From Flavobacteriales bacterium (GTDB taxonomy: Bacteria > Bacteroidota > Bacteroidia > Flavobacteriales_F > PHOS-HE28): a DNA stretch of 64,000 nucleotides. The notes beneath the pieces are model-generated. The model had not been told where the DNA came from. It did no database searches and saw nothing but the letters and a program-made list of their open reading frames with translations. Positions 1,707 through 24,962 of this stretch are shown piece by piece; positions within the stretch are counted from its first letter, which is position 1, and every line of letters starts with the position of its first letter. The position numbers and the translations under genes are program-made. The DNA lies in assembly GCA_023382455.1 (NCBI GenBank), contig JAHDVX010000017.1, positions 1 through 64,000 of the forward strand, given 5' to 3'.

Positions 1707-3299
1707 ATGAATCGTCACTTTGGGGCAACGCACCACATCCAGCCGAGCAACATCCACGACACAACCGGGATCACCCCTTCGATACAACGAAGCCGTAGCT
1801 GTTTTGAAAATTCCGCGTTTTGGCAGTGTCTTGATAATCGGATAGGGAGGAAAAGAGTACCTTCGGCCAAGTTCTTTGACATACGTCCCGGAACGGCGGA
1901 CCCCGCCCGGTACTACAACACGCTGCACTGCCCGTCCCGCCTAAGCGGGATGATGGACGGGCGCAGCCGCATCGCCACCATCCGAATAGGCAATGATGCG
2001 GAGGACGCCACGCCCACCATCAAGTTCAACTTGGAGGACCACTTGGGTACCTCCAGTGTAATGCTGGATTCCGGCGGGAACCTCATCAACCGGGAGGAGT
2101 ACTATCCTTTCGGGGAGACCAGCTTCGGGGCCTTTGCGAAGAAGCGGTACCGCTATGTGGGGAAGGAGAAGGACAATGAGAGTGGCCTGTACTACTATGG
2201 AGCGCGGTATTATGCGGGGTGGATGTGCCGGTTCGTGAGCGTGGATCCGCTGGCGGCGAACTATGCGCACTTGAACCCATATAATTATGCAGGTAACAAG
2301 CCGATAGGGGATCTGGATATTGATGGGTTGCAGGGGACGGGGGAGCAGCAAAGCGGGGACGGTAGCCCGATGACGCAGGTTCCAGCCACCGATGGAGTAC
2401 CCACCTTCGAACTCAAAGCGGCCGAGATCGTTCGGTCGAAGACGGAAGGCCAAGGGGATTCGGCAAGCCCGTCCGTGGCTTCGACCGCTCCGGTGCTGGC
2501 AGCAGATCAAACCGCAAGACCGGGGGCCATCCGCCAGCCCCATAGTCCTCCGAGGCTGCCGGATGCCGCCCCGCAAGCAGGCTTTCTCGGTTTGAAGCCC
2601 GTAGGGGCACAATCACAACAGACCATAGGCCCGGCGGATGACAGCTACGCCCATAAGCTGATGTCCGATCAACATCGCTTGACAAACTATCTCAATAAGC
2701 AAAAGGAAGGCAGGCGGCAGCTTGACCCCACGGCCATGGCGGGCGCGGAGGGTTTGATAACAGCGGCTCAGCATCCGGTGGACGTGGCGTTGGTCTTTGT
2801 GCCGGAACTGCTGTTGATGCGTGTTCAGAAAGTCGCTGAAGCATACCGGTTGGCAAATGGGATCGTTAGATCAAGTGAGGTTACCGTATTTCACACAGTA
2901 CGGAGTTCCGAGCAAGCAAGCAGCATGTTGAGGGGTGTTGATGCCACGAGGCTGAGTACAGGTAGTCGGTTTGGAGCTGGAGTTTATACATCTGAGCAAG
3001 TAGGAACAACACTACTTGAGCTATCCGCTCACAATGCCACTGGCAGTCATACAATTCGCTATGCGTTGGACTTGAACAAGGCGAAGGTCCTCGACCTTAC
3101 TGAGTTTTCTACCGCTGCTGAATGGGGTTATGCTGGTGGTGGAATATCCACGGCCACACAGAGTATCGGGGCCAAAGCTTTCGATGCGGGCTACTCTGTT
3201 GTGAAATTCCCATCCGTACGAGGGCCCGGTTCCAATTATGCAGTGATAGGGAACTTTGAAGAGTTATTGAAGGCGCACATGATATTCCCTGTACCATGA
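1707..3299 (+). CDS. Truncated Rhs core with RES/ADP-ribosyltransferase-like C-terminal toxin tip
   Basis: The 530-residue frame shows Rhs similarity only from about base 1951 (MDGRSRIATIRIG, then EDHLG, EYYPFG and the full core to base 2330). The first 80 residues do not look Rhs-like, so the true start is unclear and the gene may be a displaced tip cassette rather than a complete Rhs protein. After a Pro/Ala-rich linker, the last 140 residues carry FHTVRSSEQ (around residue 395), STGSRFGAGVYTSE (R421), LLELS (E438) and GYSVVKFPSVRGPGSNY (S503). This order of Arg, Glu and a Ser in a PSxR context resembles the RES-domain / ART-fold toxins that attack NAD+ or transfer ADP-ribose. The assignment rests on motif resemblance. 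The stop overlaps the start of the next gene (ATGA). Confidence 0.7.
   Translation: MNRHFGATHHIQPSNIHDTTGITPSIQRSRSCFENSAFWQCLDNRIGRKRVPSAKFFDIRPGTADPARYYNTLHCPSRLSGMMDGRSRIATIRIGNDAEDATPTIKFNLEDHLGTSSVMLDSGGNLINREEYYPFGETSFGAFAKKRYRYVGKEKDNESGLYYYGARYYAGWMCRFVSVDPLAANYAHLNPYNYAGNKPIGDLDIDGLQGTGEQQSGDGSPMTQVPATDGVPTFELKAAEIVRSKTEGQGDSASPSVASTAPVLAADQTARPGAIRQPHSPPRLPDAAPQAGFLGLKPVGAQSQQTIGPADDSYAHKLMSDQHRLTNYLNKQKEGRRQLDPTAMAGAEGLITAAQHPVDVALVFVPELLLMRVQKVAEAYRLANGIVRSSEVTVFHTVRSSEQASSMLRGVDATRLSTGSRFGAGVYTSEQVGTTLLELSAHNATGSHTIRYALDLNKAKVLDLTEFSTAAEWGYAGGGISTATQSIGAKAFDAGYSVVKFPSVRGPGSNYAVIGNFEELLKAHMIFPVP
1931..1961. repeat. Nested inverted repeat at the left edge of the second Rhs module
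   Basis: Outer arms CCCGTCC (1931-1937) and GGACGGG (1955-1961) are perfect complements and enclose a second stem, CCGC/GCGG, with a CTAA loop. Recognisable Rhs coding similarity starts inside the right arm, so the element sits at the junction between unrelated and Rhs-derived sequence. It may be a REP-like insertion or a recombination scar. Confidence 0.5.
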
Positions 3300-21728: not shown

Positions 21729-22892
21729 TCACTCCCGCAGGAATTTGGTGGTGAGTACCGTTCCGCCAGCCTTCACCTGCACGAGGTACGCCCCGGATGG
21801 AACTGCGCCAATGTCGTACAACCCTTTTGCCACCTTGCGGACAGGCAGCTCCTGGCCCATGGCGTTGAATAACCGCACTTGTGTAGCAACACCGCCGCGC
21901 ACTTGCACCCGGATCTGCCCGGGATCGTCCGTGGGCGCCACCACCAACGCGGGCATTGTCGCCTCATTCACGCCCGTGGAAAAGGACACGTACACCGTAT
22001 CGGTCACCTGGTTGCAGCCGGCATCCGGGGTGAACACCACGCGGTAGTAGCCGGTGTCCAATCCAGCCCAGTTGGCGGAAACACCACTGATCGGGGGGTC
22101 TGCTGTGTTCCAACCGTCCAATCCACGGTAGAGGTTCGCTATTCCCGACACAGGTGAATGCAAGGGGTACGACTCGGTGGTGTCCGGCACCGCTTCGAGC
22201 AGGTTCACTTGGCCCTGCATGGTGCCCGGCTGCGTTCCGGAAGTCTCCACAAGAAGGCTCAGGTTGTTGCAGGAATTGGCGATGATCTGCGTAGTGTCAT
22301 CCACCACTTGGCCGCATGCCAAGTCGTGCAAGCGCAGGTGGTACGTATGTCCTGTGGGCACGTTGCCGAACCAGACCGTATGGCCGTAACAAGGCAACGA
22401 CTCGCAGCCCATGCAGTCCCCCGGGGCGAGTTCAACCACACCGTCCTGGACCAAGCGCACGTGCGTCAGACTGTCCACAGGGTGGCAACATGGACCTTGT
22501 ATGGACGAATCATCGCAATATGCGCCAGACACGAAAGCGGAATCCGTATATTCTCCTACCTCGGCCCAAGCGCTGATCGAGAAGCCACCGCCTTGCCAGT
22601 AGCTGCCTGAAACGCTGAGGCCCCAGCCCAATTGCTTCATCTGGAACGGGAAAGACTGGACCACTTGCCCATTGTGGTAGGCTTGCCAGTTGTAATCACC
22701 CGGCGGCAATTGGTCGTCAAAGCCAACGTGCCCATCGGACCACAGCACGGAATCGACCTCCCCGTTACAAGAGAGTTGAAGGTCTCCTTCAGTGCATGAA
22801 CCAAAAGGGTGGCTCACCCAAGTAAAGCTACATTGGGCCATTGCGGCCGCTGGCAGAAGAGCGAGGGAAATCAGTATGGTATGGGTGCGCAT
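21729..22892 (-). CDS. Secreted protein with type IX secretion C-terminal sorting domain
   Basis: A 387-residue protein with signal peptide (HTILISLALLPAAAMAQ, cleaved about residue 19). A beta-rich, Cys-containing body follows, with repeats of the SprB/PKD-like type ending DTGYYRVVFTPDAGCNQVTDTVYVSF. The last 80 residues form a T9SS sorting domain: VVAPTDDPGQIRVQVRG, VRLFNAMGQEL, GLYDIGAVPSGAYLVQVKAGGTVLTTKFLRE. It should cross the outer membrane by T9SS and be surface-attached or released. The ligand or role is unknown. Confidence 0.85.
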   Translation of the reverse strand: MRTHTILISLALLPAAAMAQCSFTWVSHPFGSCTEGDLQLSCNGEVDSVLWSDGHVGFDDQLPPGDYNWQAYHNGQVVQSFPFQMKQLGWGLSVSGSYWQGGGFSISAWAEVGEYTDSAFVSGAYCDDSSIQGPCCHPVDSLTHVRLVQDGVVELAPGDCMGCESLPCYGHTVWFGNVPTGHTYHLRLHDLACGQVVDDTTQIIANSCNNLSLLVETSGTQPGTMQGQVNLLEAVPDTTESYPLHSPVSGIANLYRGLDGWNTADPPISGVSANWAGLDTGYYRVVFTPDAGCNQVTDTVYVSFSTGVNEATMPALVVAPTDDPGQIRVQVRGGVATQVRLFNAMGQELPVRKVAKGLYDIGAVPSGAYLVQVKAGGTVLTTKFLRE

Positions 22893-22957: not shown

Positions 22958-24962
22958 TCAGCGACGGACACGATTAACGATGAACCGAGCAAAGGAATCC
23001 TGACCTGTAAGGTGGAGCAAGTAGATGCCAGTGCTCAGAAAAGGCACCTTTATCCCATCGGAAATCGTATTGAGATGACCAGTTTGTATGATACGACCTG
23101 ATGCGTCATACAACTCGTACATCTGGTCATCCATCACAGAGGCCTCATCTAAATCCAGAATTTTCAGCCGTTCTTCAGTTGGAGCATATACTACACCAAA
23201 TTGAGCGACCTCTCCGTCAGAAGAAAGGTTCTCCGTCTCATCCTCGCAATACGGAATGGGCATGGGCGAGGATTGACCGCACGTGATCGCCGGAGTTGTC
23301 GGTGGATCAGTGTATAACGGCAAGCAAGGTGCAAATGGCGGAACAGAAAAGGTCCCGTAACCAAACGTTCCGTTCCAAGTCGTGCCCGGACCCCAGTAGT
23401 AGGTACCAGTTCCTGGAGGGCGTTTGGTACTTGGGCCTAAAACACCCGTATATACTCCATTTAGATTAATCTGATGAAAGGTAAATGGTTCTGAAAAGGA
23501 AGGAGTGCAAACTTCCCTTCCATTACTTTTTATCTTACATCCAATGATATCAATCGCATTCGCGTACGGTGGGCACCCAGAACAAGTTGCATTACTTTTA
23601 CCTCTGAGCCAGACTCGCCCATTGCAATTTACAGTTATCTCACAACGATCAAAAACCACGCGACCTGCAATAAAGTCAATTTCCAATATGTTCGGGAAAT
23701 ACTCGCACCCAGACCCACTTGTGGTGGCAGGGTTTTGTATATATGTAAATGACTTATCCTCTTCAAGTATCTTGCAGTTAATGAATTTTGTTCGGTTATC
23801 TGGTCCAGAAGGTGGCCATGTAGAAACTGATGCATCGTAGCACGGTCCGACCCGGCCATAAAAGGTACAATTCGAATAAGTAATAGCCTTTGATTTCTGC
23901 CAACTGCAATATGAAGATGGACTTGCCGAAGCTTGAAACAGGCAATTATCGAATGATATATTGTTCGTTGACAAATTAGCTTGATCTGTGATAAAACCGC
24001 AAAATTTATTACCAATGAACGAACAAGACGTAAAGCTTCCATTGGCTACCGTACTTGGTGTTGGACAATACGGAGTTGATTCCATTTCGGCATCAAAGCC
24101 ACATGCTGGACTTGAATAAATGCGCCCAATCCCATTGAAATTGAAAACGGTACTACTAACTGTTAAACCATTACCACCGCCCCATGACAAACCCTGCCTG
24201 ATATTATTTCTGAACTCACAGTTTTCTATACTAATTTTCATCGAGGAAGCATCACCTGAGCACAAGTACAGCCCATCACGACCAAAGTGATGTACTTGTA
24301 GAAATGCCAGATTAACTTCACGGCAGGATGTTATGATTATGCCGTCGTGACTTATTTGAAACCCATCGTAATTATATTTACCTCCAATAATGATGTTGTC
24401 AATGTTTCCATCAAGCTGAAACATTTTCATGGTTATGCGAGAACAATTATTTATTTGAATTATCGGTCCAATCATGGCAACCTCATTCCAAGGACCAGTA
24501 GGACTGGAACAGCTTACATTGACTTTTGCGTTAATAACACTTGCGATTTTTACAAATCTTCCAAACAATAGACAATTTTCAGTTCTAATAATAGTACGTT
24601 CCTTTCCATAAATATCAACATTGTGACATCCATCCAATTCAAATGGAATTGAAAAGCGAGTAAAACAAGACATGCACTCTCCAGAAGGTGCGCCGAACCA
24701 TTGGCGACCAACAATGAACTCCCCATCCGGCATGGACAAGGAAGTATAGCCGCCTCGCGCGTTTATCCAGGCAGCAGCGGCGCGGAAGGCCTCATGGTCA
24801 CTGCAATTATCGTTAGGGACTGCGCCGAAATCCATGATGGACAAAACAGCAATCCCCGGGGGGGGGGGGGTACAACGCTGGATTTGGACTGATAGCTGGC
24901 GGGCACTGCGCTATTGCATCGCTGAAGAAAACAAGAAGAATGGGAATGAGTGTATTACGCAT
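22958..24962 (-). pseudogene. Secreted right-handed beta-helix protein with T9SS tail, split by a poly-C tract (frameshifted or phase-variable)
   Basis: The gene starts at ATG 24962 with a signal peptide (MRNTLIPILLVFFSDAIAQ). At residue about 32 the frame enters 13 consecutive C (coding strand) and, as sequenced, ends after 49 residues. In the other frame, from ATT just after the tract, a 600-residue protein reads SIMDFGAVPNDNCSDHEAFRAAAAWINARGG, the classic start of pectate-lyase-like beta helices, then a long parallel beta-helix repeat region (many FxNCxF and ISIENCEF-type turns). It ends in a T9SS tail (LYDASGRIIQTGHL, STGIYLLHL, ARFIVNRVRR). A tract of 12 or 15 C would join both halves exactly. 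The gene is more AT-rich than its neighbours. It is either ON/OFF switchable by slippage or carries a sequencing error in the homopolymer. Confidence 0.8.
24858..24870. repeat. 13-base G/C homopolymer inside the beta-helix gene
   Basis: Thirteen G on the plus strand (C on the coding strand), preceded by CCCC, lie between signal peptide and mature protein. With 13 the frame is broken; 12 or 15 restores it. Such tracts slip readily during replication. Confidence 0.85.

Follow-up and report, generated by a model that had tools for sequence, protein, structure and literature searches.

On the minus strand of the window, that is, the whole 64-kb stretch of DNA analysed here, a gene for a putative secreted protein extends from 24962 to 22958 and is divided between two reading frames. 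The start codon and a signal-peptide frame occupy 24871..24962, a poly-C tract lies at 24858..24870, and a body frame of 632 codons, beginning GIAVLSIMDFGAVPNDN, runs over 22961..24857 to a stop codon at 22958..22960. The ATG at 24962 opens MRNTLIPILLVFFSDAIAQCPPAISPNPALY; exactly 13 C come next (24870-24858), ahead of GGGGATTGCTG. Translation from this ATG gives MRNTLIPILLVFFSDAIAQCPPAISPNPALYPPPP. The tract begins 92 nt after the ATG, i.e., in the 5′ part of the open reading frame. A first-pass annotation of this DNA had proposed that the signal-peptide frame and the body lie in different frames meeting at 13 C, and that 12 or 15 C would join them at a PPPPG-type junction; translation confirmed both points. 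The assembled 13 C give a product of only 49 residues, which ends ...PPPPGDCCFVHHGFRRSP, and 12 or 15 C give ...YPPPP(P)GIAVLSIMDFGAVPNDN... in a frame with no stop before 22958. When tract lengths of 11–15 C were translated, the repeat number moved the gene between the long frame and an early stop. Apart from the tract, the body frame is unbroken, and a TTG at 24844, internal to it, is merely a mechanical start.

No other C/G run longer than 7 is present in the window. When the tract is collapsed, about 0.016 runs of at least 13 are expected there under a first-order model. Runs of at least 7 numbered 3, against 21 expected under a first-order model, so that long C/G runs appear to be avoided elsewhere in the window. 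For Campylobacter, a C/G repeat threshold of 7 or more has been used, and 13 C is far above it (PMC6321876). The GC content of the gene is 44%, vs. 61% in the window, and the gene was possibly acquired from elsewhere. Its downstream neighbour with a T9SS tail (21729-22892) has a GC content of 59%.

The joined frame has a Sec signal peptide, MRNTLIPILLVFFSDAIAQ, followed by CPPAISPNPALY; it was read by eye and matched to the relative L129, which has the same layout, and no dedicated predictor was used. The body is predicted to be a right-handed parallel beta-helix of the pectate-lyase/AlgE/RbmB type. This prediction draws on profile matches to the crAss-type tail fibre gp22, AlgE4 epimerase, carrageenase and pectate lyase (PDB, E 6.8e-9 and weaker), and on Foldseek, whose best matches to an AlphaFold model of low confidence (mean pLDDT only 55.5) were AlgE4 and RbmB, with E about 1e-7 to 1e-6; the Pfam Beta_helix match (E 1.9e-4) stayed below its cut-off. 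AlgE4, RbmB and pectate-lyase proteins share with the window protein the predicted body fold and a DFGAxPND-type N-terminal motif, but identity is low, about 11–14%, and the window protein adds a T9SS tail. That tail, a putative type A sorting domain at 22967..23180 on the minus strand, scored marginally, reaching 22.5 bits for TIGR04183 against a curated cut-off of 23 and 21.2 for PF18962 against a curated cut-off of 27. Of the beta-helix with T9SS tail described at first pass, the beta-helix stands, and the tail looks real yet falls just under both curated cut-offs. The genome encodes SprA (SprA_N, 550 bits), the sole T9SS component searched for.

Relatives of the gene within the genus, at about 27–34% identity, have no tract, and in them a single frame covers both signal peptide and body. 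The closest of them, L129, shares the layout, with its parts in frame (...CCSAAMAQCPIPF...), and reads MILIRQASVVLGILCCSAAMAQCPIPF...NIVDNFGACPDDGESDHAAF, with signal peptide and body continuous. Since these relatives have both parts in a single frame, the two frames in the window represent one gene. The first-pass annotation had held that relatives lacking the tract, with the gene simply in frame, would refute a switch; such genes were found only among these distant beta-helix relatives, where they suggest that the tract was gained, probably locally, rather than that no switch exists. The relatives recovered in the contig scan come from Flavobacteriales MAGs, and the isolate name Go_SlAct suggests activated sludge. 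A second assembly of the source species was not found in the scan of genome contigs.

Elsewhere in the same genome, C/G runs of at least 10 are few, once clusters beside 10-N gaps are set aside. Poly-G/C clusters at C6, C10 and C35 adjoin such gaps and were excluded as assembly trouble, as were tracts at contig ends. Three tracts lie at the starts of signal-peptide genes, including that of the window. At C13:67038-67052, 15 C stand at codon 3 (ATGATAT[C15]), out of frame, where 14 or 17 would be required, and precede a 1438-aa secreted protein with a weak T9SS-tail match. At C1:4704-4713, 10 C stand at codon 4 (ATGATTATCTG[C10]), in frame, in a gene for an SprB-repeat-type protein. Four clean within-gene tracts of 10–12 were also present, in genes which, from their translations and without a search, we take to encode an NRPS-like large enzyme, a NusB-like protein and two large proteins. 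All four are in frame, which argues that random miscounting is not general in this assembly. MutS and MutL are both encoded, so slippage would be held down, and an unusually high switching rate is not claimed.

Runs of at least 12 C are present in 25 of 45 genomes of the genus. For a survey of clean tracts (at least 12 C/G, n = 51), neighbourhoods near gaps, contig ends and other long runs were set aside, and a tract was counted when an ATG lay no more than 90 nt upstream of it and led to a protein that has a hydrophobic signal-like segment and whose frame is open for at least 100 aa. The hydropathy rule for the signal-like segment is crude, yet the same for tracts and controls. By this rule, 22/51 tracts lie at the starts of signal-peptide genes, vs. 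173/3000 random positions (5.8%; p about 2e-14); the window gene, whose ATG is 92 nt upstream, falls outside the 90-nt limit and is not among the 22. Several contigs from relatives, at L108, L105, L115 and L128, terminate within or next to a long C/G run, which looks as if assembly had broken at tracts of mixed length; in L108, a run at 3032-3053 directly precedes a 925-aa secreted protein. Beyond the genus, among other Bacteroidia, tracts precede signal-peptide genes in G069 (L252, L257), and the tract habit may not be confined to the genus. In G049 (L265), from another Bacteroidia family, a G14 run around 2089 falls within a putative T9SS sorting domain and leaves the assembled frame intact; a slip at this point would turn sorting, not export, on or off.

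The SprB-repeat family (profile A2) has a start-proximal repeat in 35 of the 52 members with a readable start. Leaving out ten members picked for a long tract, 25/42 members not preselected for a repeat carry one, vs. 4/176 control genes (p about 1e-17). These repeats are poly-C or poly-G of 8–16, (AC)10, or 7-base units such as (GCACGCC)5, and they encode proline, glycine or other residues. In L156, L163, L170 and L161, (GCACGCC)5, (GCACACG)4 or (AC)10 replaces the homopolymer near the start. Because the repeat unit and the encoded residues vary, it is the repeat and its place that are conserved, not the peptide. In the ‘NLWVNG’ family, to which the C13:67038-67052 gene belongs, close members have 8–15 C at the same place.

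Tract lengths differ between copies with 92–98% identical flanks, e.g., 10 vs. 9 in L239/L240 of G007; the copies L113/L248 of G024, with flanks 82–97% identical, have 12 vs. 9, and L157/L158, from two genomes and with similar flanks, have 10 vs. 9. These differences concern sister loci of the genus and not the window gene, for which no close relative was available. Among 42 genes with curated starts, 7 are in frame, 19 have one base too many and 16 one too few; under a looser start rule, 13 are ON and 36 OFF. The in-frame share of 7/42 is somewhat below one third, and the genes are distributed over the three frames nearly at random, with OFF somewhat over-represented. Start-proximal tracts of only 8–10 in relatives are also found out of frame.

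The same kind of tract is found in stand-alone LytTR regulators of about 130 aa, where an N-terminal poly-C occurs at L096 3338-3349, L106 3470-3481, L086 3231-3243 and L091 325-336; two of these are in frame and two out of frame. The copy in the source genome (L058 5906-6079) is entangled with a 10-N gap. Together, these five genes are the best five matches of their profile. It is possible that the poly-C LytTR genes are phase-variable regulators. Divergent secreted proteins of one family (...DTWK.ILR.DPYLA.GYFIV..., 513–525 aa) adjoin two of the LytTR genes, at L058 6389-7930 on the plus strand and L086 1337-2914 on the minus strand, and such a neighbour is possibly the regulator’s target.

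We regard it as likely that the gene at 24962-22958 is a translational contingency locus and one member of a genus-wide repertoire of switches that turn surface proteins on and off at random. DNA polymerase slippage on the C tract would gain or lose single C. With 12 or 15 C (or 9 or 18), the signal peptide and the beta-helix with its T9SS tail would be made as a single exported surface protein (ON); at 13 or 14 C, ribosomes would run out of frame just past the signal peptide and meet an early stop (OFF), the presumed state of the window as assembled. The repertoire would consist of short repeats about 3–30 codons from the start codon of secreted genes, mostly of T9SS or SprB type, and would take in some stand-alone LytTR regulators. 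The contingency locus suggested at first pass finds support in what is observed, namely, the layout, its recurrence in genome and genus with enrichment at the starts of signal-peptide genes, copies that are nearly identical but differ in tract length, and the presence of all three frames. That place and mutability are conserved, and the peptide is not, fits a lineage-wide repertoire of slippage contingency loci. It remains an inference that lengths change within living populations at useful rates, that the protein is thereby switched, and that a selective benefit, in the face of phages or predators or in attachment, keeps the switch.

On a rival reading, the true tract has 12 or 15 C, sequencing or assembly got the count wrong, and the gene is always on. 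An error of one base would be enough, homopolymers of this length are error-prone, and the assembly does have poly-G trouble near 10-N gaps (three tract clusters), such that some assembled lengths may be wrong. However, these 10-N scaffold gaps also suggest a short-read assembly, in which we infer miscounts to be rarer; the within-gene tracts of similar length in this genome are in frame, and relatives are out of frame even at the short start tracts described above. A miscount at the window tract would also leave unexplained why tracts gather at the starts of signal-peptide genes, and we consider this reading improbable.

Still less credence is given to a decaying pseudogene with a single frameshift at a weak spot. 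The out-of-frame assembly would fit it, as would the foreign origin suggested by the low GC content and the further downstream truncation of L114, a tract-bearing paralog in G024, but the 632 codons contain no other lesion, the sole lesion sits at the one place where a single base would revert it, and the same type of lesion recurs across unrelated secreted families. Transcription slippage is possible on long homopolymers, and with most assembled copies out of frame, it could be supposed that RNA polymerase slippage or ribosomal frameshifting yields a fixed share of full-length protein. A programmed shift, however, is expected to have one fixed offset; the offsets are mixed (19 vs. 16, plus 7 in frame), and programmed frameshifting of fixed direction was accordingly judged unlikely. 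RNA slippage would likewise not account for the AC and 7-base repeats found at the same position, so correction at the RNA level ranks as very improbable, on a par with the pseudogene.

Contingency loci that switch by slippage are known mainly from host-adapted pathogens, and phase variation in Bacteroidota is mostly known as DNA inversion. The poly-G/C loci, or ‘phasomes’, of Campylobacter, Neisseria, Helicobacter and Haemophilus (PhasomeIt, PMC6321876) share with the present ones a long 5′ C/G run in a surface-related gene, a frame set by length modulo 3, and many loci per genome. On the other hand, the loci described here belong to uncultured environmental Flavobacteriales with MutS and MutL, their cargo is of T9SS/SprB type with a signal peptide, and polymorphism within a clone has not yet been shown. 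Invertible promoters of Bacteroides (PMC10939037) likewise switch the surface randomly on and off in Bacteroidota, but by DNA inversion rather than the repeat slippage proposed at the window locus. For the FSD surface genes of Ornithobacterium hominis, a passage of one paper speaks of a ‘putative phase variation mechanism’ (PMC13183296) and does not itself name a repeat mechanism; O. hominis is host-associated and the genes are of another protein family, and the first description of O. hominis does not mention phase variation. A literature search returned no report on such a repertoire in T9SS bacteria or on repeat slippage in Bacteroidetes, which is weak evidence because most subscription papers lay outside the search. 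As far as searchable papers go, the earlier remark that slippage phase variation of a T9SS cargo would be unusual holds, and the mechanism is known, whereas no description was found of the lineage, of the T9SS/SprB-type cargo, of the preference for the signal-peptide region, or of LytTR regulators as apparent members.

With less assurance than for the locus itself, we lean towards the wider view that a free-living T9SS lineage runs a slippage repertoire that switches secreted proteins preferentially in their signal-peptide region, where the switch has arisen independently from different repeat units. Stand-alone LytTR regulators would belong to this repertoire as well, and a single slip could then flip one surface protein or, alternatively, a regulator. 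If this is true, environmental bacteria too would randomise their surface by slippage, plausibly against phages and grazers, and many ‘frameshifted’ secreted genes in such MAGs would be switched-off genes, not pseudogenes.
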